A stretch of 64,000 bases of DNA from Sordariomycetes sp. S80-01Y (lineage: Eukaryota; Ascomycota; Sordariomycetes): positions 620,001 to 684,000 of the forward strand of contig JAXQJY010000021.1 in NCBI GenBank assembly GCA_037042185.1, written 5' to 3'. A model generated the notes under the pieces. That model ran no database searches, had not been told where the DNA came from, and saw only the letters and a list, made by a program, of their open reading frames with translations. Positions 28,541 through 55,114 of this stretch are shown here, one piece after another (within the stretch, counting starts at the first letter, position 1; each line of letters begins with the position of its first letter). Made by a program: the position numbers and the translations under genes.

Positions 28541-29792
28541 GAACGTCGTGCCTTGCTCGAAGCCGTGCTGAAGAACTACAGGAAGGGGTTGCGATGATGC
28601 CTGCTCGGTAGTTGGGCGGTCGGTGTTCTCTCGTTGTCTGGTTCGTGCTCTGCTGTACCATATTAGTGTGGCACCCGGCGTTTTATGGCTGATGTTTTCC
28701 TGATGGGTGGTTTTGCGAATAGTCTTTGGGAATCACGAATTCGAATCTTTGTGGAACAGAACAACGGAAGCTTTCCCCTTCCCTGCCCCTTGCTCGTGTG
28801 ATCCGAGAGAAGCAGCACGGCCTGCTGCTTGCGGGAGGTGTCGCGGAGGAGGCGTCAGCCTCGGTAACGCACGATGCTCGTACGTGACGCTCGTCCACGT
28901 TGCGCAGACACGTTCCAGTAGCACGCCGTCTCGTGTCTCGGCCGCAGGTACCGGCGAGATGGACGTGGCCGTGCCAAGATTGCGAGTTGAGACAGCCCCT
29001 GCCCATCGTCATTCGGAGGTTTGGCGGCGGGGGTCTCGGCAAAGCGACGTGCTGCGTCAAGCAGCGCATACGGCACTGCGGGAGCGTGTCTGCCGCGTCG
29101 GACTGGCTAACAGTGGGTATCCAGACTCTCGGGAAGATCCCTTGCGTCACGTCAGGGCGATCTACATGAGCGGGAGACACTTGTTTCTCTCCAGCCTCGT
29201 ACACCGAAGACAGCGACGATAAGGTACCAGCATCAATCGATGACACGTCAAGTCCTCGAGATAGCAGTTGTAATCCTGTGCTTCGCATGCGATGTGGTGT
29301 GGTCCTGATTTCAAGGAAGACGATGCCCTGGTAGCCGTGGATTGAGCTTTGGTTGGCACCACGTCACAGATTGACTTACATCACCGGAATCAATGCAACT
29401 AACCCATCGTCCCTCTTACACAAGCACACGCAAGCCCTCAAGCCCCCAAAACTCCAAGCCCTAGGTTATTCCCGTCAGCCCCCGTTTCACAGTATGCATC
29501 AGTCCTGGAGCTTAACTCGGATGCGGCCATGATTCAGACGCTCTGGGAACCTGGCTCCCCAATGACGACCACCAGTCTCTACCTCTGCCCGCTGCATCTA
29601 CCCACCCGCTGTCTCTCTTATCGCCTGCGGCCGACCTGTCGTCGTTGTGAGACTGCATGAAGGGCATGGCTGTCTAATAATCTTGATCTGGGCGTCGTAA
29701 CACCTGCTCCATTCTTGGAAATCTCCTGGGGCGCCGACCTGTTGCCGGGAGGCCTGGTGAGCCACGTCTCGGATTTTTCTTAGGCTGTCGAG
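28541..29792. other. Intergenic between cbf5 and the GH43 gene
   Basis: About 1.25 kb have no supportable gene. Minus-strand open frames up to 201 codons exist at 28683-29288 but overlap open frames on the other strand and carry no family signal. Confidence 0.45.
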
Positions 29793-30959
29793 ATGGCAGA
29801 CAGAGGTATATCTTCAGAGAGAACGCCGCTCCTCGATGGGGGGGCGGTGGTCGAGCATAGAGAGCGAGTCGTGGACGCAGAAGAGCGCTGTTCGCACAGA
29901 AGACGGCTTCCTGCTACGTTCAAGACACGACGCTTTCAATATTTCTTCAGGATGAGCATCTTCTCGCTCGTCGTGCTCTTCGCGACCTATGTGGTCTACA
30001 CAGCCGCTGCCCCCCCGCTGGAAACCCGCCATCGACATGGACTGAGACTAGACGTCCTTCACGCTGAAGTGCCGATGCAGCCTGTGCTGCCGATGGACTT
30101 CCCCGACCCAACAATCATCCAGGATGAGGACGGCACCTGGCACGCTTTTTCTACCAACTCGGCCGGGAAGAACATTCAAGTCGCCAAAGCCAACGGCTTC
30201 GGTCCCCTCGGGGCATGGACGAGGCTCGACATTGATGCGCTGCCGGACAAATCCTGGACCAGCGGCAGAAACACCTGGGCGCCGGACGTCAAGCGCCTAG
30301 ACGACGGATCGTACATCATGTACTTCTCCGGTGAGCTGCCGGACAGCCACCAGCACTGCATTGGCGTCGCTCGCTCAGACAGCATTGCCGGCCCTTACGA
30401 GCCGTTGCCCGAGCCGTGGGCCTGCCCCCTTGAAGAGGGCGGCGCCATCGACGCAGCGGGCTTCTACGACGAAGACACCGGCAGACGATACGTCGTCTAC
30501 AAGATCGACGGCAACTCAAAGAGTGGCTTCTCGCCCTGCGGCACCGGTGTCGACGACCCTGACCTGAAGACGCCCCTCATGCTTCAAGAAGTTGAATCCG
30601 ACGGAATCACAAAGATCGGGAAACCGGTGGAAATCATGAACCGCATCGCCGCCGAGGATGGGGCCTTGGTAGAAGCACCCGAGCTCACGAAGCGGGATGA
30701 CGGCACGTATGTCCTGTTCTTCAGCAGCCATTGCTTCCAAGACCCCAGGTACGACATCAAGTACGCGTGGAGTAAACACATCCACGGGCCGTACGTGCGC
30801 GGGTCAGAGGCGCTGCTCAAGACCCCGGATTTCCAGCTGAATGGGCCTGGCGGTATGAGCTCGGGACGCACAAACAAGGGTGACGAGATCACGGCTTTTC
30901 ATGCCTATTGCCAGGACAAGGCTAGGTGTTTGTATATTACGAGGTACGGGGCGGCGTGA
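29793..30959 (+). CDS. Membrane-anchored glycoside hydrolase family 43 protein
   Basis: This single exon encodes 388 aa. The GH43 five-bladed propeller is shown by the catalytic base D105 in MDFPDPTII, WAPDVKRL, the pKa-modulating Asp D220 in GGAIDAAGFYDEDTG and the general acid E294 in LVEAPELTK. GH43 enzymes cleave arabinan, arabinoxylan or xylo-oligosaccharides. Instead of a cleavable signal peptide there is a ~50-residue hydrophilic basic N-terminus containing an ERTPLL dileucine-type motif, then one membrane helix at about 54-72. The predicted orientation is therefore type II, with the enzyme lumenal or extracellular. Substrate and subfamily cannot be fixed from sequence alone. Confidence 0.9.
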   Translation: MADRGISSERTPLLDGGAVVEHRERVVDAEERCSHRRRLPATFKTRRFQYFFRMSIFSLVVLFATYVVYTAAAPPLETRHRHGLRLDVLHAEVPMQPVLPMDFPDPTIIQDEDGTWHAFSTNSAGKNIQVAKANGFGPLGAWTRLDIDALPDKSWTSGRNTWAPDVKRLDDGSYIMYFSGELPDSHQHCIGVARSDSIAGPYEPLPEPWACPLEEGGAIDAAGFYDEDTGRRYVVYKIDGNSKSGFSPCGTGVDDPDLKTPLMLQEVESDGITKIGKPVEIMNRIAAEDGALVEAPELTKRDDGTYVLFFSSHCFQDPRYDIKYAWSKHIHGPYVRGSEALLKTPDFQLNGPGGMSSGRTNKGDEITAFHAYCQDKARCLYITRYGAA

Positions 30960-34260: not shown

Positions 34261-34314
34261 GTAAGCCACAATTCTTGACTTAACAACATCCCCTGACCAT
34301 TTCTACAGACCAAG

Positions 34315-37300
34315 ATGTCATCCAAGGCCACTGTCGAGGCTGACGACACCTCCGAGAATGTTAACGAGATCGCTGAACGACCTGGTACCCCGGCTGTCTC
34401 CTACGAGAAGCAACACCAGCGCTCTGCTGATAACCGGTCCCACGAGTCGAGAGTCAGCGCTCTTGTTGAGCTTGATGGCAAATTTCTGCCATACTCGTCC
34501 GACTGCTTTCGTCGTCTCGATAGCGGTATTTCCAAAGGCATCCGTACCATCGTTAGACTAGAATGTGGGGTCGGTCGCCCGCAGAGGATCCAAGTCGAGT
34601 ACGAAGTCAAGCAAGACGAAAACTACCATCAAATGGCCACCACTCACATCGATCTCAACCAAGTCATTGATTTTAGAGAAACGATCATTGGCCCGCTTCA
34701 TCCGGAACGCCTGAACGCACTTCGTCAGCTTCTCCCGGATGAAGCCCCTGCGTGTGACAGAATTTATAGCAAGATTGGCGTGAGGAATGAGCTACCACCA
34801 GGTCGACGTCTCAGCAGGAATCCCGAGCTTTGGCTAAAACCTAAAAAACCCTTCCAGAAGATTGCATCCACGCTGAGCTTCCCGGAGGCGGCTATGCTTC
34901 TTGATCAGAGCATCAAGTTCCTGACGATGAGCGTCACATCGACATCTTTTCTCTGGACCCCCAGCAAGATGGCCAATCAGCTGGGGCCGCACGAGAGGAA
35001 GCTCCTCGAGAAAACCATCAATACGATAAAGGAAGTTTGCAACAAAGAGAGATTCGAAATCCGAATCATCAGCATTTTCTCAGACTCCGAGATACGAGAC
35101 CCAGATAACACCATATCGCACCACACCTCGATTGCCCAACCATTCGCTGAGTTCTTCAGCAAGGCTTACCAAGGGCGCAAGGGCAACCCTTCAGATCTCA
35201 AATTTTCCAATCTCGTCGTCAACCCCAGCAGGCGTCCTCTAGATAACGGACCACCACCGCCACCAGATACCGACTTCATCTCCGATGAACATCGAACGGC
35301 TGTACTCATCACGAGCGCCGCCGAGGAGGCCTACTACGATAAATGGCGCCATGTCCGTTGCGACGGGCATTCTTTCAAATGCACGCTGATACCACTAGCT
35401 GGAAACGAATGGAAAGATGAACCCAATGCCGACTATGGCATCCAACCGAATGGCCAGCCAAAGTCCTGCATCCTCATAGTTGGCATGGATGAGTATCAAA
35501 ACTCTCTTCCAAACGTTGGCACTGAAGTACAAGTACAATTCAACACAAATATGCGGCTTCATCCCTACCCACAGATAGCGCTGACACAAGAACAAGTCAT
35601 CAAAGCGGCAAACGATGCTATTGATATTCTTGACAGAGCGCAGAGCGATGCCTTCAGTGAAGCATACAACCATAGCCTTTGGACTCTCAAATATGGCAAC
35701 CTCAAAGAAGACTCTTCCGAGGGCGCCACATCCGCCTGCCATGATGCACACAAAGAAGCGCTTGGACGGCGATTGAGTCCGTTCCTGAACCCCTTGTTTG
35801 ATGGCCCTTCCGACATGACATGGAAGCAGTTTCAACACCGGCTAAATGAGCGCTCGGTTGAGGTGGGAAGAAAATTGACGAGAGAAATCAACGAGGAACC
35901 TGACGATCATCGCGAGCGCATTGTCAACTGGGTTCGCGAGAATGGCGCTGCTTTGCGCAACGTGCAAAAGAGAGATAGCGAATTTCCTACTATGTGGTCA
36001 GGCTATCGCTTGAAACTTCCAGACGGTGTTACCTCGGACAAAGCTATATTTGAGGTCGAAGTCCCACTTCAGCCAATGTGGCCGGCACCGTTCACAGCTC
36101 CTCCCATCATGGTAGACATACCACAGCTACCAAAAGGTCGGCTTCGCACCGGCCAAGACGTCTTGGAGAGCGTCGAATCAGAAGAGCCTCCATTGAGGTG
36201 CCTTATAACTTGGCGATCTACCTCTATCAGTGCCACTCTCGAATGCGATGCCATCAGCCGCTTCAATGCCTCGAATGAAGACAAGGAGACGAATCCAGAC
36301 TAGGTGTACTGGAAGTCTTTCAACATTCGCGAGCGACCAGGCAAGATCGACATGCTGTCCCGCTTCCCAATGTTGAAGCAGCGCCTAAGCGATGGCAAGT
36401 ATGAGGGACAGCACAAACGTGCTATTGCGCAACTTGGCAGCAATTTTGGCACCTTCACCTTCATTGCGGGATCTCCTAGCTCTGGCAAATCGACTCTAAG
36501 CCGCAAGATCGCCTCTGCTGTGATGGATTCAACCAAAGCCGACGATGACGCTGCCGTGCCAAAAGTCCCGATTCCAAGAAAGGGGGGGCTTGTACTATGG
36601 GCTGCTCCTTCTCATCAGTTAATTGAAGAAGCCCTCGAACATCTGCGTGCAGAAAACCGCACGAAGACCGTGGTGCGGATGTACTCCATGGTTCACGAGA
36701 TTGACAACCTTCTTCGGCCATCACCTGAGGTTCCCAATGAGATTCATCTGCCCAAAGCCGGCGAATACGCTGGTAGACCTGGTCTTCGTGATTTCACTTT
36801 GTCGCGGAATGAGCAGGTCCTCGAGATGCACTCAAACACCGCGGCTAGCCATGTCGATAGCGTGTCAGCATACATTAGGCGGGGAATGGTCTCGATTGCC
36901 AATTTGTATCCCGTGCTTCGCGAATCTCAGAAGCTCTACGACTCTGACCCTGGATCCTGGGAAAGGGGGAAGAGGAGATACGAACAGGCTGCGCGCAACG
37001 CCATCGTCTATGTTCTCTTGCACAGGGCCGATGCCGTCATAGGCACGCCGCACGCACTGAGCGAAGCTGCAATCCACTTCCCTCCCAACAGCAACCGTCC
37101 TGACCTCATAGTCGTAGATGAGTGCACACAACTGTCTGAAGGGGAGTCGCTGATGGTATCATCTCACTTCATAGGCACGTGGACCCTGCAAGTTGGCGAT
37201 CCTCAGCATGTTGGAGCTGTCTGCAAGCCATTAGGCGATCCAGAATTCCCTAACATGTTCGGGAAGCAACGCAGCATGTCTCTACTCAAGCGTGCCGTCA

Positions 37301-37374
37301 TATGTGGTGCCGCAGTCATCGAGCTCAAGAACGATCAGCCCGATGAGGGGTTTCCACGCCGACGACTATGGTGA
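34315..37374 (+). pseudogene. UPF1-like superfamily 1 helicase gene, interrupted and truncated
   Basis: An open frame from ATG 34315 runs 662 codons to a TAG at 36301-36303 and continues in the same frame for 356 codons to 37374. The second part carries Walker A GSPSSGKST, Walker B LIVVDECTQ and motif III QVGDPQHVGAV of UPF1-like SF1 helicases. The first part ends in a region that relatives join to the helicase core. Motifs IV-VI, which make up the second RecA-like domain, are missing because the frame ends at EGFPRRRLW. A plausible 5' UTR intron (34261-34308, gtaagc...tctacag) precedes the start. The TAG fits a C-to-T change in a CpA context, as repeat-induced point mutation makes, but one event proves nothing. 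Alternatives: two separate small genes (second start at 36352), or an intact 662-aa protein of its own. Confidence 0.6.
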
Positions 37375-37528: not shown

Positions 37529-38079
37529 GGTGATAGCTTGTAGTAGACTTGGTGATGGGTTGCGAATAAAGTCGGTGATTACTCGCAGTCAGGGTTGATG
37601 ATGCCTTGTGGGTAGAGTTCGTGATGACTTGTGGGTAGAGTTCGTGATGACTTGCGAGTAGAGTTCTTGATGACCTGTAGATAAAGTGTGTGATGAGTTG
37701 TAGGTAGGGTCTGTGATCATTTGCAGATTTCGGATATGATGGCTTGTAGGTCGAGTTAATGATGAGTTGTAGTTGGATGAATGATGGGTTGTAGGTAGGA
37801 CGAGGGATGGATGGCAGGGAGGGTGAGTGTTGGGTTACAGATAGGGTCGATGATCACTTGCGATTTGGGTTACTGATATGTTGTAAGTATGAGCTATGAT
37901 GGCTTGTAGGGCGAGTTGGTGATGAGCTGTAGGTAAGAGTAGTGATAGGTGGCAGGCAGGGTCAATGATCACTTGTAAGTAGGGTCAGTGATAGTTTGTA
38001 CATAGGGTTATTGATAGGGTGTGAGTATGGTGAGTGATGGCTTGGAGATACAGTAAATGATGGCTTTTAGATAGAGGTA
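37529..38079. repeat. Degenerate 23-bp minisatellite, about 24 units
   Basis: Units repeat every 23 bp, most clearly at 37621, 37644 and 37667. Each opens with gtgatg or atgatg, continues with cttgtaggtag and closes with a pyrimidine-poor ggtt/agttc. The units diverge increasingly to the right but keep the period to about 38079. The period is not a multiple of three, and stops occur in all frames, so the array is not coding. It lies in the gap between the truncated helicase frame and the convergent DXO-like gene. Confidence 0.9.
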
Positions 38080-38252: not shown

Positions 38253-39416
38253 TTAGACCTCGTGGGTGGTGTTAACCTCGTTGAGACTTCGGTCCCTTGT
38301 GCTCACATCACCCCATTTTGCATAGAGGTCTTTCGGCAATAGCTCAGGTAAGTCAGCGTTTCTTCGAACTGTCAAACGATCCCTTGAGACATCGAATGTT
38401 ACCATCGCCTTCCCGCCGAGCTTCTTCGCTGTTGCAACAATGTGCCGGATCAGCCCTCCTAGCTTCCGCAGATCGGCTTGGCTTTCTGCTTCCCAGGCTT
38501 GAATCATGCGAGAGACATCCTCGACCTTTGGCTCTGCGAAAACTCCCCTTTCGTGGTAGGCTCGAACAAGTTTTGGGGTCTGTGACACCCAAAGCTGTGG
38601 CGCTGCTTCATCGAAGCCAAGGGGCCTTCTGATGGTTCGCGTCTTGATCTCGAGTGTGGAGTCCATTGAAATGGGATGTCCGCCGGTTTTAGCCCTCAGC
38701 TTCGAGTCGGGAAAGCTTATGTACTTCTCTTTGGCTTTCGATCCCAGCGTCATGCTGCCCAATACTTCAGCGAGGCTATCGCCTGCCGTCTTGTTGGTAG
38801 CGCTGAGGTAGCCGTCCGTTTCGTGGCGCACAATGAAGCTCATACCAGCGAAGCAATACGACAGAACACGGTGATGACCTGTAGCTCCGCTGATCTCGGA
38901 AATGGTATACTCCTTCTCGAAATTGTGGCCGAAGCCACGGAAGTCGCGCGGTCCGATGAATTCGGTGGTCGCTGCCTGGGTCCGAGCCAGGATGGCGGTG
39001 TTCTTGGTGACTTCGACGTTGATGGTGAAGGGCTCGAGCTTGTGGCTGTCGCGGCCAGGGTTGACGAATTGTAAAAGCTTGCGTATATTGTTGCGATCTG
39101 AAATGACATCGACTGAATGAACGTCGAAGTCTGGATTCTCCATGAAGAGGGACCGAAAGAGTGGCTCGACAGGGCTTTGCGGATGGCGTGCCGCGTTCTG
39201 AGCACAGAAGACCAACCCGAAGTCTTTCTGCAACCTCTGGGGTCCAGCCAGGGGTGTCCAGAGAGGCGGAAGGCCTGGTACGACGATCGTTGGGGTGTCG
39301 CCTTCGACCCAGCAGTATGAAGCGAGGTGTTTGACGTTGGTGATGGTTGCAGCATCTGGCGTGCTAAGACGCTGAAGATCCACGCGGGAAATCTTGAATG
39401 TCGTAGCTGGCTCCAT
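38253..39416 (-). CDS. Fungal protein with DXO/RAI1-like nuclease motifs
   Basis: This is a single exon of 387 aa starting MEPATTFKISRVDLQRL. Similar fungal proteins are often labelled 'geranylgeranyl pyrophosphate synthetase', which the sequence does not support: there are no DDxxD motifs. In order I see GHNFE (163-167), the acidic pair E199-T-D201 in VRHETDGY, E256-I-K258 in LEIKTR, and Q279 in WVSQTPKL. This order and spacing match motifs II-V (GxxxE, E-x-D, E-x-K, Q) of DXO/RAI1 decapping exonucleases. A further conserved block, TDRNN-IRKLL type (SDRNNIRKLLQF), precedes them. The nuclease assignment is my inference from motif order. The gene is convergent with the helicase-like gene. Confidence 0.8.
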   Translation of the reverse strand: MEPATTFKISRVDLQRLSTPDAATITNVKHLASYCWVEGDTPTIVVPGLPPLWTPLAGPQRLQKDFGLVFCAQNAARHPQSPVEPLFRSLFMENPDFDVHSVDVISDRNNIRKLLQFVNPGRDSHKLEPFTINVEVTKNTAILARTQAATTEFIGPRDFRGFGHNFEKEYTISEISGATGHHRVLSYCFAGMSFIVRHETDGYLSATNKTAGDSLAEVLGSMTLGSKAKEKYISFPDSKLRAKTGGHPISMDSTLEIKTRTIRRPLGFDEAAPQLWVSQTPKLVRAYHERGVFAEPKVEDVSRMIQAWEAESQADLRKLGGLIRHIVATAKKLGGKAMVTFDVSRDRLTVRRNADLPELLPKDLYAKWGDVSTRDRSLNEVNTTHEV

Positions 39417-42400
39417 TGTTGATTGTGTCTCAGTGTATGTGTGTATGAGGGAGAGAGAGAGATTGAAGAGTGATATTGAAGATGCTGATGATACAGTAAG
39501 CAGCGCGTGTTTGCGGCAGGTGATGAATGCCTCACAGATGAAGAAGCGCTTTCTCAGCCAAACTCATAACGTCTAATGCATGTAGGGCCTTTATATGCTA
39601 CCATCAAAGCACGCTGCCCTATAGTCGGTCCATGCTTGGGGACCTAGTGGCGCAGCGGCGTCGTCACGTTGAGGTTGGACGCCTTGCGGCCCGGTTGACT
39701 CCTGGGCCAAAGGAGGATCCCAGAAGTCCTACCTAAGTGCCCATTCTGATACATTTTCAAGTTGGCTTCACACCAATAGCCTCGGACAATAGCCAACATC
39801 ACTAGGTTGACAGGTATGAGGACCAAGACACAACGGGCACCGTTGTCTGCAGCCCTCCCACTTGGGTGGCTGGGCTCCCATACCTCGTAAAGTCGAAAAA
39901 GATCTAATGCTTGTTAAAAACCGCTGAGACACTTTAAATTGACGGAAAATGTTTGTTATTCAATTGCAGTTTGGGCTGCGACTAAATGTATTGGGTTGCC
40001 TGTCTGCCTTGCGTGCTGGCTGCGGCCAGGCTGCACATGCAAGTTGGCCAACATGCAGAAGACGCCGAGTGCATGGGGGGAACAGAAAGACATGCTAGAT
40101 TTCCCCTTGTGGCAATCTATCCATTTTTGGAAATGAGACTTCAATGAGTCCGACTCAAGTACTTTTGACTTTGGGAAGGCGCGTGGTCGTGGATCGCAGC
40201 TGCCCTATGTTGGTGAAAAGGGGATAGATCGCAACCTGGTACAGTGCACATCTGTGGCTCTCGCGCTGACATAGAACTATCCGCATGCCCACATGTTCTC
40301 CAAAAATGTAGTGGACCGGAGCAGTAATGATTTACAGAGATCCAAATAGGTTTCATCAGTAGTAGCAGCGTACAACTGACGGCCTCCATATCATAGCTCT
40401 TGGAGAAGATCTAATACTGAGGCGAGTTGAGAAGCTTCGTCCGGCCTTCCTTTACTGACGGAATTCGAGGTTGTGTTGGGGCTTTTGAGCTTCTGGCGTA
40501 TTCCGATTGAATTGCAATGCGACCTCTAGTTTATCTCTAGATCTTTGCAAAGGTGTATCTTTAGGTTAACTGAGGTGGTACCTACCAAACACACAATAGA
40601 TTCAGAGCATGTTCGGTGGGTGTTCACTTTGTGAAATGGTATGTGGTAGCATGTATAACATGGTGGGTGTTCACTGTGTGATATGGTATGTGGTGGCATG
40701 TATAATATGGTGTGTGTTTGCGCGTATGATATGGCGTGTGTCGGCCCGCATGTTATGGTATGGGTTGGCGTGTTGACGATAACAGACAATGTCCAAGGGT
40801 GGTATTGCTGAGTGGGTTGGTATCAAAGCTGATCTTGAAGAGTTTCGCCTTCTGGCATAATTAGTTCTTACCGTTGGTGATTGAACGAGCTCAAGTTCTT
40901 GAGACGAGACTCCAATCCTGCCAAGATACCCCTGGCTCCAAGGAGCAGAAGTAGCCGAAAAGTGGCTGTACGCGTTCATTCTATAAGGTCTGGACAGCAG
41001 CCTGGACTGAATCGTCATCGATCCAACGCCCACATCCCGAACTACCAAGACAGAAACGACAGCCAGCTGATAAGAGCTGGTGTCATCTTACTTTATTTAA
41101 GTACGCCAGCGCTTGAAGTTCGCCTCTGGAGGCAATGCTTGTCAATGGAAAGCGCATTGCCGATCGCCAGCTGGTTTTACCCAAGCTTAGAATGGCAGCA
41201 AATCGAGGTCGCCGTTTGGTAATGAAATCTCGGATCTCGCGTGCCAAGTGTTGGTCGCGTGTTCTCGATCATCGGACTGTCCTCTCGCGACCGAGTCCCG
41301 TTGCGTCAGCCCGACTCGTCTTTCTTGCCCCCAACGACTAGAGATAAGCGGTAGACAGCCACACTCCAAAAGCATCAACTGCGCTCTTTTCACACGGACC
41401 TGACCAACACCAGCAGAGCAACAGCAACATCTTTGAGGGCAGCTTTCGCTTGTCATCGCCATGCCACCCACGCACCCACCCACCTGAGGCGGGCCGGAAA
41501 ATTAAGCAGCAAAAGAGAGTTTGTCGCGACAGCTGCGCCGTGGGCGCTTGGAAGCCCGTGCGAAAGTTCTAGCGCCGGTGGCTAGTCCCAAAGGGGCAAA
41601 TAGCCAAGGAGGGCTCTTTGCCGCCAAGATGGGGGATTTGCGGCGGGCGCTGAGGCGCTGAGGCGCTGATTGGGGGCGTTGCAATTTACTGGAGCATGTG
41701 CCGGGACCAGGCGCGCCAGAAGACGCTGCCGGAGGCGAAGAGACGAGGTGGCTTGCAGGTCAGCAGCCGTCTGCCGCGGGTGCAAGACACCAGCCGAGAT
41801 GAGGTACGATCGTCAGAGGAGAAGTGGCTCTCCACGGGCTGATATCCTCGACGAGGTTTGGTCACGGCTGGATCTAAAACTGAGGGCTGCCGCCGCTAGT
41901 CTCATGCGAGAGGCGATTTCCTCGCTTGGTTCCGGACGGCGATGAGGCCTCAAGAGTCGCGGCAACGTGAAGCACAGCGAGTGATACCTGACGGGCGGTG
42001 AAAGTGGGACCATCTTTGTGCTTACCCCACACTGCCAACCCTTATCTTACCTAAAAAGCCAATTAAACTGAGGGGGGGTCGGCTCTACTTGTTAGTGCAG
42101 TGGGGCGCATTCAAAAAGAGGTCAATCCCGACGACGAGCAGTCGGGTGTCAAGATAACGAAGGGGTACCGCCAGCGCTGGGAGGTGCTGTGCCTCTGCTG
42201 CTGTAAGCATTGCTTGAATACTACAGTGCTGCACTTTCTATAGCCGCGCAAGAAGTGTAGTCGACACATTGGATGCGGAACGATGGCCCGTCTTGACTTG
42301 CGTAAAACCAGCAGCAGTGCCGTCGGCTTGGTTCCCAACCAACCAACCAACAAGGCCGGCCCAAGGACGAAGGAGCTCGTAAAAGCCATCCATGAGAAAG

Positions 42401-51115: not shown

Positions 51116-52054
51116 GGTCATTGGCAGTCTGTGGAAGGTAGATGTACGGAGTACGGAGTTTGGAATGAAGGGGCACCCATAGGCAGTGAGCACAGATCCT
51201 TCATGTAGTGACTACAGTCCTTTAGCGCATCATACGTACCCCGTGTCAGACCAATGTCTAGCAGCTAATTCTTTTCAACAAGTATCCCCCCGAGCAGATG
51301 CGGCATTGCCCAAAAAAATTATCCAGCCAAAGCGGACTCCTTTCCGAGTACAGAGAAGCAGCGAAACACAGCCATTTCTGGTAGCTCAGGCCTGTCAACC
51401 CTGATCGTGCCATGCCGGATACCAACTAATTGTTCGAGAATGGGCAATCCGACCTGCGATCAGGCTCCTGTGCTGCCGGTAAACATGAGAGCGGTCCTTA
51501 GTAAGCGCCATCGGCTAATCTCGAGACTCGTCAACTCAACCTGCCACTTTTCCAATCAAAAGTCCCCTCGTCCACCGTTTTCCGCAGCGAAACCCGCAAC
51601 GCTCATCACCAAAGATTAGCATCGGGATCCCTTCCGAGCCACACCAAAAGCCGTTGCGATGCCCGGGACATCTTTGTAACGACGCGCCGCTTGCCCCGCA
51701 TAAAGACCAGATGACCCCTAGGCCGCTCACTTACTTCACGGGTTCGGCTCGAATGAATCCGGGGGAAAAGGCACGATGGAACGTCGACCCTTGGCTGGCG
51801 GATTGAGGACAGGGTTCAAGCGACATGTTATCATGCGCACCAGTCGGTCGGCTGCCGGTCGAACCCCTCATGGTTCCCCTCATCGCCTATCGCGTACTTT
51901 TGGGGGAGCGATGATACGTGCCAATGCAGATGGGTTCGCCAAAGTCTGATGGAACTTAAGAGTATTTCAAGGGCCGGCTCTCTAAATCCAACTGAAGGCA
52001 GACAACTTGGGCTTCTTTCCCTTTGGAAAATTAATTTGGACACGGCTAGAGACA
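51116..52054. other. Intergenic between erg2 and the GH127 gene
   Basis: About 0.94 kb without a recognisable gene. It contains a tandem acggagt doublet at about 51145-51160. Confidence 0.5.
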
Positions 52055-55000
52055 ATGGGCCATTCAAAAAAGCCCCGAAGGCTTCTCCAGACCTTGGCGT
52101 TTGGGGTCGGCCTCTTCGCCATGAGCGCCACTGCAGATGTACCTGGTGATCCAGGTCCTGGTGGAACCGCTCCCGTGCGCCCCTTTCGCCTCGACCAGGT
52201 CGAACTAGGCGATGGCTTGTTGCAGGAGAAGCGTGACCTGGTCAAGAACTTCCTCCAGGAGTACGATGAGAGACGCTTCTTGATGCTCTTCAACGATCAA
52301 GCTGGTCGGCCTAATCCTGAAGACATCCAGGTGCCCGGTGGTTGGGAAGATGGTGGGTTGTTGAGCGGCCATTGGGCTGGTCACTTCATGACAGCTCTTT
52401 CACAAGCATATGCGGACCAAGGGGAGGAACTCTACAAGGAGAAGCTCGACTGGATGGTAACTGAGCTTGCTGCTTGTCAAGAGGCTATCACAGATCGAAT
52501 GGACAACGAAGATCCAGGAGAGGGACCTGGTGATGGGCCCGAGGAGATCGGTCGTGTAGATGGCAAGTTTGGAAACGCCTTGAAGCTGGAAGAGGGAAGC
52601 TCCGCTCAGTACGTCACGTTGCCTCAGGAAACCATCAATCAGCTCAAAAGCTTCACAATTGCTGCGTGGGTCAACTTGGATTCCACGGAAACGGGCGGCA
52701 GACTGTTCGACTTTGGCTCCAATGAGGATATCAACATGTTCCTCACGCCACGCGCCGACTCTTCTGAGAATGGCCCACGGTTTGCCATCACCACCGGTGG
52801 ATCTGAGCAACAAGAGGAAATCAACGGTGATAAAGCACTTGCACAGAATGAGTGGGCGCATCTTGCCGTCACCCTAGGAGGGGGCACCGGTACGCTCTAT
52901 GTCGATGGCTCAGTTGCTGGGACAAGCGATATCTCGCTAGGCCCAGCCGATCTAAACAGCCCGTCTAACAGGTGGATTGGCCGCTCCCAGTCCGATGTCT
53001 ATCTCAACGCCACGATCGACGAGTTTCACATCTTCGACCGAGTACTGGACAAAGAGGAAATCATGTCTATGCAAGACGGTGCAGAGGGCTCAACCAATGG
53101 TGGCAATATCGCTTGGTACCGTTGTAATGAAGAAAGCGGCACGACTCTCAAGGACTCTTCTCCTAACGGCAGAGACGCTGGAATCGTTGGCGAGGAAGGC
53201 TCCGGAGGCAGTGATTGGATTCCCACGCATCCAGGCTATCTCGGGGCCTTGCCTGAGGACACGGTCCTCCGCCTGGGTCCCCCCCGCTGGGCAGTTTATG
53301 GAGGCGATGCCAGCAACAACACGTGGGCACCGTGGTACACGCAGCACAAAATCATGCGTGGTCTTCTGGATGCTTACTACAACACCAACAACTCAGAGGC
53401 TCTTGATGTTGTGACTAAAATGGCCGACTGGGCATACCTGGCGCTGACAATTGGTGACAAGAATCACCCTGACTACCAAGGCAACCTGACCAGAGATGAC
53501 CTCAACTACATGTGGGATCTCTATATCGCCGGAGAGTTCGGCGGCGCCAATGAGGTTTTCCCTGAGATCGCCCAATTGACCGGCGATGACAAGCATTTGG
53601 AAACAGCCAAGGCCTTCGACAATCGGGAATCATTATTCGGAGCGGCAGTAGACGATGATGATATTCTGGTAGTCCCGGCGGACGAGGTTCCCGGTCGCCG
53701 TCGTCCTCCACGTCTCCATGCCAACACCCACGTCCCCCAGTTCATTGGCTACCTCAGCGTCTTCGAACACAGCGGCGATCAAGAATACTACGATGCAGCC
53801 AAGAACTTCTACGGATGGGTGGTGCCCCATCGTGAGTTCGCCAGTGGCGGCACGGGGGGCAACTACCCCGGCTCCAACGACAACACCGAGTTGTTCCAGA
53901 ACAGGGACAATATTGCCAACGCGATCGGTGACTCTGGTGCTGAAACATGTACAGCTTACAACATGCTCAAGCTCGCTCGCTACCTCTTCTTCCACGAGCA
54001 CGATGCAAGTTTCATGGACAACTATGAGCGTGGTCTTTTCAACATGATCACCGGTTCACGCAGTGACGAATCAAGTGACACTGATCCCATGCTCACGTAC
54101 TTCCAACCGCTGAGTCCTGGATCACGCCGTGACTACGGAAATACCGGCACATGTTGCGGTGGCACTGGTCTTGAGTCCCACACCAAGTATCAGGAGACCG
54201 TCTACTTCCGCTCTGCTGATGGGTCCGCCCTTTGGGTCAATCTCTATGTTCCCTCAACTCTGACCTGGAAGGATCAAAACTTCCAACTCAAGCAAGAAAC
54301 AGAATTCCCTCGCAAAGACACTGCCAAGTTCACCGTTCAGCAAGGTGGTCAGCTTGACATCAAGCTGCGTGTGCCGGCTTGGGTCGAGAAGGGATTCACC
54401 GTCACCGTCAATGGGGAGAAGTACCAGGACGAAAAGGCCGAGCCCGGAACATATCTTACACTGAGTCGTACCTGGAAGACTGACGATGTCATTGAAGTCC
54501 ACATGCCCTTCACGATCCGCATCGAGCGAGCCCTCGACCGTCCGGACACCCAAGCCATCATGTGGGGGCCAATACTTCTCCAACTTGTTGGATCTCCGAA
54601 AGCTGAAAGCGGATTCCACGAGCTTTCCCTCTATCACCATCTCAAGCTTGACGGTGACTACTCAAGGGCTGCTGTCCGAAAGAAGGAGACAAATGCGAAA
54701 GGCGATTCCATATTCGCGACGGGCTGCAACGTGAAGGCTAGACCGTACTACATCAGCGACGCTAGCGCTGTGTCTTCCTACTTCCGCCGTGTGGAGCGCA
54801 AAGTTGTTTTCGGGAGTATCGATACTTCTGTCCCGAACCGCAAGCGAGATGAAGGCCTGCCGAAGTATGATGTACCCGTTGAGGGCATTGAATCACCAGG
54901 AAACGATGGGCCGACGTTCCTAGACTTACTGTGGGACCAATCCCCCTTCAAGACACACGAGGACTTCGTCGATGCTGTGACTAAACTCGCAGAAAACTTC

Positions 55001-55114
55001 GTCGATGAAGGGGTCTACTCTGATGAGGAGAAGGCTGATATCATCACGGGCGCCAAGGAATCCGAGGAGGACCTAGCTGTTGCGAGCTCTGGGGATTCGG
55101 CGATGGAGTCTTGA
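52055..55114 (+). CDS. Secreted GH127 (DUF1680) arabinofuranosidase-like enzyme with inserted LamG domain
   Basis: This is one exon of 1019 aa. The first ATG of the frame is 52055 and gives a good signal peptide (MGHSKKPRRLLQTLAFGVGLF..., cleavage near SATA-DVPG). GH127 enzymes hydrolyse beta-L-arabinofuranosides. The zinc/cysteine active site is visible: E630-T-C632 (GAETCTAYNML) and C700-C701 (GNTGTCCGGTGLESHTKY), matching Glu338/Cys340/Cys417/Cys418 of Bifidobacterium HypBA1 as I recall it. HANTHVPQ lies upstream. A LamG/concanavalin-like domain (about residues 167-340; SFTIAAWVNLD, RWIGRSQSDVYLNATIDEFHIFDR) is inserted between ELAACQ and PGYLGALPED of the catalytic fold. The same insertion is common in actinobacterial homologues. 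With no introns in 3.1 kb, bacterial ancestry is likely but inferred. Confidence 0.92.
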   Translation: MGHSKKPRRLLQTLAFGVGLFAMSATADVPGDPGPGGTAPVRPFRLDQVELGDGLLQEKRDLVKNFLQEYDERRFLMLFNDQAGRPNPEDIQVPGGWEDGGLLSGHWAGHFMTALSQAYADQGEELYKEKLDWMVTELAACQEAITDRMDNEDPGEGPGDGPEEIGRVDGKFGNALKLEEGSSAQYVTLPQETINQLKSFTIAAWVNLDSTETGGRLFDFGSNEDINMFLTPRADSSENGPRFAITTGGSEQQEEINGDKALAQNEWAHLAVTLGGGTGTLYVDGSVAGTSDISLGPADLNSPSNRWIGRSQSDVYLNATIDEFHIFDRVLDKEEIMSMQDGAEGSTNGGNIAWYRCNEESGTTLKDSSPNGRDAGIVGEEGSGGSDWIPTHPGYLGALPEDTVLRLGPPRWAVYGGDASNNTWAPWYTQHKIMRGLLDAYYNTNNSEALDVVTKMADWAYLALTIGDKNHPDYQGNLTRDDLNYMWDLYIAGEFGGANEVFPEIAQLTGDDKHLETAKAFDNRESLFGAAVDDDDILVVPADEVPGRRRPPRLHANTHVPQFIGYLSVFEHSGDQEYYDAAKNFYGWVVPHREFASGGTGGNYPGSNDNTELFQNRDNIANAIGDSGAETCTAYNMLKLARYLFFHEHDASFMDNYERGLFNMITGSRSDESSDTDPMLTYFQPLSPGSRRDYGNTGTCCGGTGLESHTKYQETVYFRSADGSALWVNLYVPSTLTWKDQNFQLKQETEFPRKDTAKFTVQQGGQLDIKLRVPAWVEKGFTVTVNGEKYQDEKAEPGTYLTLSRTWKTDDVIEVHMPFTIRIERALDRPDTQAIMWGPILLQLVGSPKAESGFHELSLYHHLKLDGDYSRAAVRKKETNAKGDSIFATGCNVKARPYYISDASAVSSYFRRVERKVVFGSIDTSVPNRKRDEGLPKYDVPVEGIESPGNDGPTFLDLLWDQSPFKTHEDFVDAVTKLAENFVDEGVYSDEEKADIITGAKESEEDLAVASSGDSAMES

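Follow-up and report, generated by a model that had tools for sequence, protein, structure and literature searches.

Within the window from Sordariomycetes sp. S80-01Y (the whole stretch of 64,000 nucleotides that was analysed, positions 620001-684000 of contig 4 in a genome of 30.9 Mb and 16 contigs), the reverse strand carries an uninterrupted reading frame whose translation, from 39416 to 38253, gives a protein of 387 amino acids, here called P0001. Its predicted structure and conserved residues suggest that P0001 and its relatives are probably a divergent branch of the DXO/Rai1 fold, likely to be catalytically active and acting as metal-dependent hydrolases on RNA 5' ends. The case for homology is built on the predicted fold together with conserved residues that appear to fall in the right places. 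P0002, a relative as long as P0001, shares 85% identity with it end to end, which indicates that the frame is conserved and that truncation in this one assembly does not account for the short form. Among the matches listed in a homology search, the closest named relatives of P0001 were proteins of Stylonectria, Tolypocladium and Clonostachys. Taken with the Hypocreales homologues of the RAI1 gene described below, they make a hypocrealean ascomycete the most likely source of this DNA.

Predicted fold and motif residues

An AlphaFold2 (AF2) model of P0001 resembles Rai1 and DXO across residues 4-372, so that the predicted DXO/Rai1 fold takes in the whole chain, at about 11% identity to Rai1 in the structure comparison. 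A reading made earlier from the sequence alone (the sequence-only reading) had assigned the protein to DXO/RAI1 and named a fold other than PD-(D/E)xK as the result that would contradict it; that result did not arise, since the fold predicted by AF2 and recognised by Foldseek is the PD-(D/E)XK fold of DXO/Rai1. Six motifs are defined for DXO/Rai1 in the excerpted text of Wang et al. 2015 (PMC4513879), which places them, in Candida albicans Rai1 (CaRai1), in alphaB (I), alphaD (II), beta10 and the loop that follows (III), beta12 (IV), alphaF (V) and beta13 (VI). In the model of P0001, every motif is on or beside an element of the expected type and in the expected order, motif VI being placed by sequence register and by the strand of the model. 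The gene and its motifs are as follows.

38253..39416, reverse strand: gene P0001, single-exon open frame from ATG to stop, encoding a 387-residue protein of predicted DXO/RAI1 fold
39093..39095, reverse strand: motif I arginine, R108, first residue of helix 108-118 in the model
38916..38930, reverse strand: motif II, G163-H-N-F-E167, with the putative metal ligand E167, in helix 163-170 of the model
38814..38822, reverse strand: motif III, E199-T-D201, putative metal ligands within VRHETDGY, at the end of strand 192-200 and the next residue
38643..38651, reverse strand: motif IV, E256-I-K258 followed by T259, within LEIKTR, a putative metal ligand and the lysine, in strand 254-261
38580..38591, reverse strand: motif V remnant, W276-V-S-Q279, glutamine kept and lysine absent, just after helix 268-278
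38553..38561, reverse strand: motif VI replacement, A286-Y-H288 in place of the RAI1 G-h-R/K, in strand 282-289

Conservation was counted over 202 aligned sequences including P0001 (203 minus the partial sequence P0003). R108 is arginine in 200 of these, the other two having a gap. Motif II is kept at its G (202/202), F (201/202) and E (198/202), and its first Phi position is only loosely respected, with His in 198 sequences and Arg in four. The acidic residues of motif III (E in 200/202, D in 202/202) and the E-h-K of motif IV (E in 198, I, L or V in all 202, K in 201) are likewise retained, as is Q279 of motif V (201/202). Considered jointly, R108, E167, E199, D201, E256, K258 and Q279 are present in 192 of the 202 sequences; two of the ten exceptions have gaps and eight show substitutions only. 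Of the 387 columns, 70 show at least 99% identity to P0001 over 120 sequences, and these seven residues together with G163 are all in that set (hypergeometric probability roughly 8e-7). A loose regular expression for the ordered motif set with its upstream arginine matched 17 of 20,000 shuffles of P0001. The ordered set is thus more than chance would produce.

GHNFE, ETD, EIK and WVSQ, the motifs picked out by the sequence-only reading, are all borne out by translation and conservation in the 387-residue frame. Its motif set was sound for the metal-ligand residues, which are conserved, but it overlooked the motif I arginine. The DXO-like spacing that it described holds only loosely: compared with C. 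albicans Rai1, the steps in P0001 are 59 versus 71 (I-II), 32 versus 49 (II-III), 55 versus 19 (III-IV) and 23 versus 26 (IV-V), and the long III-IV gap contains a low-confidence loop in the model (residues 208-228).

The translation factor eIF3d is non-catalytic and is built on the same fold, raising the possibility that the P0001 family consists of RNA-end or cap-binding proteins without catalytic activity. In the structure comparison, however, the cap-binding domain of eIF3d is clearly less similar to P0001 than Rai1 and DXO are, and the family retains the catalytic-type residues: the acidic ligands and the lysine are kept, with the full set in the 192 sequences counted above, although a pure binder would not need them. 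We regard a purely binding role as quite improbable.

Sequence comparison with RAI1

Pfam was scanned with 48 family members, 38 of them at E<=10 and ten at E<=1. Matches to PF08652, the RAI1/DXO/Dxo1 family, appeared in 12 of the 48 (10/38 and 2/10), the best reaching 20.8 bits with an E value of 2.7e-4. The gathering score of 26.8 bits was not attained: nine of the twelve scored below it, and the other three had E values no better than 0.0043. In the nine members for which positions are known, these sub-threshold matches span the stretch of motifs I and II. The same region was recovered by unguided MAFFT alignment, carried out once with the RAI1 reference P0122 and then as nine subsampled alignments. 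R108 aligned with R100 of P0122, and G163/E167 stood in register with RAI1 G165/E169, in the reference run and in all nine subsampled runs.

A number of results weigh against a DXO/Rai1 assignment. P0001 itself gave no Pfam or NCBIfam match in the library scans. E199/D201 matched RAI1 E218/D220 in the reference MAFFT run but in none of the nine subsampled ones, and the register of motif IV with RAI1 E238/K240 was recovered in no run. Identical conserved columns over the nine runs numbered 14-21 with the true RAI1 sequences and 10-17 with reversed ones; because this count is barely above that of the reversed controls, the alignment is not counted as proof. When hidden Markov models (HMMs) of each family were searched against the other, no significant match was found in either direction: one way, the best true E value of 5.7 was worse than that of a reversed decoy (0.62), and the other way it was 1.7 compared with 2.9 for the decoy. 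Single-sequence and profile searches of the PDB returned no relevant match. The Foldseek matches to DXO/Rai1 have a large root-mean-square deviation (6.4-9.3 A) and query TM-scores of 0.49-0.60. In hhalign, comparison with a RAI1 alignment centred on Hypocreales (50 of its 120 rows) gave no match (probability <1%); both hhalign profiles are shallow (Neff 2.3-2.4), so that this null result neither supports nor excludes homology.

The motifs themselves also depart from the RAI1 pattern. The middle residue of motif III is Thr in 188 and Ala in nine of the 202 sequences, so that the hydrophobic position of E-h-D is mostly lost. At the lysine position of motif V (residue 272), A, L, V, I or M occurs in 200/202 and K-X4-Phi-h-Q is absent; here the MAFFT register with RAI1 may be off by one residue. 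In place of the motif VI G-h-R, the family has A in 201 and H in all 202 sequences. Since the motif V lysine, the motif VI pattern and a PF08652 score at threshold are all lacking, P0001 was not filed within the RAI1/DXO family proper, from which it also differs by a long insert, modelled in part with low confidence, that separates motif III from motif IV. The DXO/RAI1 identity given in the sequence-only reading therefore stands for the predicted fold and the conserved metal-ligand residues, while motif V without its lysine and A-Y-H at motif VI, both of which it passed over, point to a divergent branch and not to a plain DXO.

Proposed activity

In CaRai1, the motif I Arg and the motif V Gln lie close to the 5' phosphate, and the Lys of motif V and the Arg of motif VI contact phosphates of the RNA body (PMC4513879, excerpts as above). 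Considering that the P0001 family keeps motifs I-IV and the motif V Gln, and that it has no Lys in motif V and a different motif VI, the catalytic and 5'-phosphate residues appear to be kept and the grip on the RNA body to be changed. By analogy with DXO/Rai1, the conserved residues would cluster into a site at which E167, E199/D201 and E256 hold two divalent metal ions, with K258 as the last residue of EhK; recognition of the 5' phosphate or the cap side would fall to R108 and Q279. By cleaving the first phosphodiester, the enzyme would set free a cap, nucleotide or dinucleotide, leaving a 5'-phosphorylated RNA. The RNA body is probably held differently, because both of the ligands that serve Rai1 there are replaced, and removal of the 5' end may be favoured over exonucleolytic decay.

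Alternatively, the loss of the RNA-body ligands could signal a change of substrate, the protein being an active DXO-fold phosphodiesterase for free nucleotide metabolites, short oligonucleotides or DNA. The whole-chain structural match, however, is to enzymes of RNA 5' ends and not to DNA nucleases, and the counterparts of the 5'-phosphate ligands, R108 and Q279, are retained. A different substrate is thus unlikely, and action on RNA 5' ends remains the interpretation we prefer.

Pet127 (PF08634), a mitochondrial 5'-3' exoribonuclease, is assigned to the same PD-(D/E)XK superfamily as the DXO fold predicted for P0001, and the excerpted account of it equates its acidic residues with those of DXO (PMC9014873); its core reads E...QxD...DLK (same source), unlike that of the P0001 family. 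PF08634 was not matched by any of the 48 members scanned. Copy numbers in the genome were taken from a genome search and are lower bounds. PF08652 is found at one locus, a canonical multi-exon RAI1 gene (C4:920018-921413) whose closest homologues in a homology search are from Fusarium, Thelonectria and other Hypocreales, and Pet127 is encoded by one gene (C5:62946-63773). As the genome carries all three, the P0001 family is additional to Rai1 and Pet127 here and no substitute for them. The P0001 gene was detected in a single copy, so that the multicopy, expanded family expected by the sequence-only reading is not supported in this genome.

A broader and more tentative proposal, on balance somewhat doubtful, is that the family forms a class of its own, spread across Pezizomycotina, of DXO-fold RNA 5'-end enzymes beside Rai1, Dxo1, Pet127 and eIF3d, with an RNA grip of its own (A-Y-H), which would take the place of the cytoplasmic Dxo1 of budding yeast and clear aberrant, metabolite-capped or foreign (mycoviral) 5' ends. 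The idea that it stands in for Dxo1 arises because a single PF08652 locus was detected in this genome. If the assignment is correct, filamentous ascomycetes would own an extra RNA 5'-end activity, supplied by a branch of the decapping and 5'-end quality-control enzymes whose catalytic residues appear intact. The altered RNA-body motifs would further offer a natural experiment on the activity profiles of DXO/Rai1 enzymes, whose determinants, according to the excerpted part of a review, are poorly understood for each enzyme (PMC9283932).

Database name, family breadth and neighbouring genes

The mislabelling noted in the sequence-only reading is real. By hand count, a search with the long-form query P0103 (Amylocarpus) lists at least 30 proteins named 'geranylgeranyl pyrophosphate synthetase' among its 120 rows, and the search with P0001 has 6/120. 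Taken at face value, the name would make these proteins prenyl synthases, an identity that we reject on sequence and predicted fold and consider next to impossible. The prenyl synthase domain PF00348 is absent from 47 of the 48 members scanned, the predicted fold is the alpha/beta fold of DXO whereas that of prenyl synthases is all-alpha, and P0001 has no DDxxD motif, as the sequence-only reading had said; a looser DD-x(2-4)-D is present in 21 of 120 aligned sequences when their first 380 residues are considered. The database name is the only likeness to geranylgeranyl pyrophosphate synthase. The sole exception to the absence of PF00348 is P0258 of Uncinocarpus reesii (839 amino acids), which consists of a complete member of the family at 1-607 followed, at 787-839, by a 53-residue N-terminal piece of the domain. 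Most simply, two neighbouring genes have been fused in this gene model. A fused model of this type could pass the synthetase name on to proteins related to its first half, and P0258 itself may be the historical origin of the misleading name. In the open-licence literature of PubMed Central, no paper was found that connects the synthetase name to RAI1 or to a decapping nuclease. A large fungal family for which the Pfam copy searched holds no model is thus carried under a terpene-enzyme name, under which an RNA 5'-end activity would be hard to find; its reassignment would correct a misleading entry in inventories of the terpene pathway.

The P0001 search returned 797 proteins at E<=1 and the P0103 search 804 at E<=0.001, and the 120 best rows of each were listed. 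The readable species among these matches belong to Sordariomycetes, Leotiomycetes, Dothideomycetes, Eurotiomycetes and lichen fungi, all of which we take to be Pezizomycotina, and P0258 is the only listed match in either search with a precomputed Pfam domain. Length varies within the family, with 66 of the 202 sequences reaching at least 560 amino acids. The long form P0103 has an extra C-terminal region (residues about 405-610) that is missing from P0001 and has no counterpart in RAI1/DXO/Dxo1; structure comparison gave no confident fold match for it. Two Botrytis cinerea proteins, P0242 and P0247, are 78.5% identical over 652 columns and may represent two genes or two alleles. In limited scans of IMG/VR and GTDB, each made with two short peptide patterns, no viral or prokaryotic relatives were confirmed, and a limited Foldseek scan of BFVD gave nothing at E<=0.001.

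Short tandem repeats with units of about 21-23 bp and 47 bp lie on either side of the P0001 gene, at 37599-37796 and 40615-40718. Tail-to-tail with this gene is a helicase-like frame on the forward strand (34297-37374), the second part of which matches PF13086 (AAA_11, E 8.8e-7) and which shows a Walker A-like sequence and a DECTQ box. An in-frame TAG interrupts it at 36301-36303, and the second RecA-like half was not recognised by eye; the frame is either a pseudogene or contains an unrecognised intron. Elsewhere in the window, also on the forward strand, are a GH43 glycosidase (29784-30959) and a GH127 beta-L-arabinofuranosidase with a laminin-G-like domain (51986-55114), which are likely to be two enzymes acting on plant cell walls.
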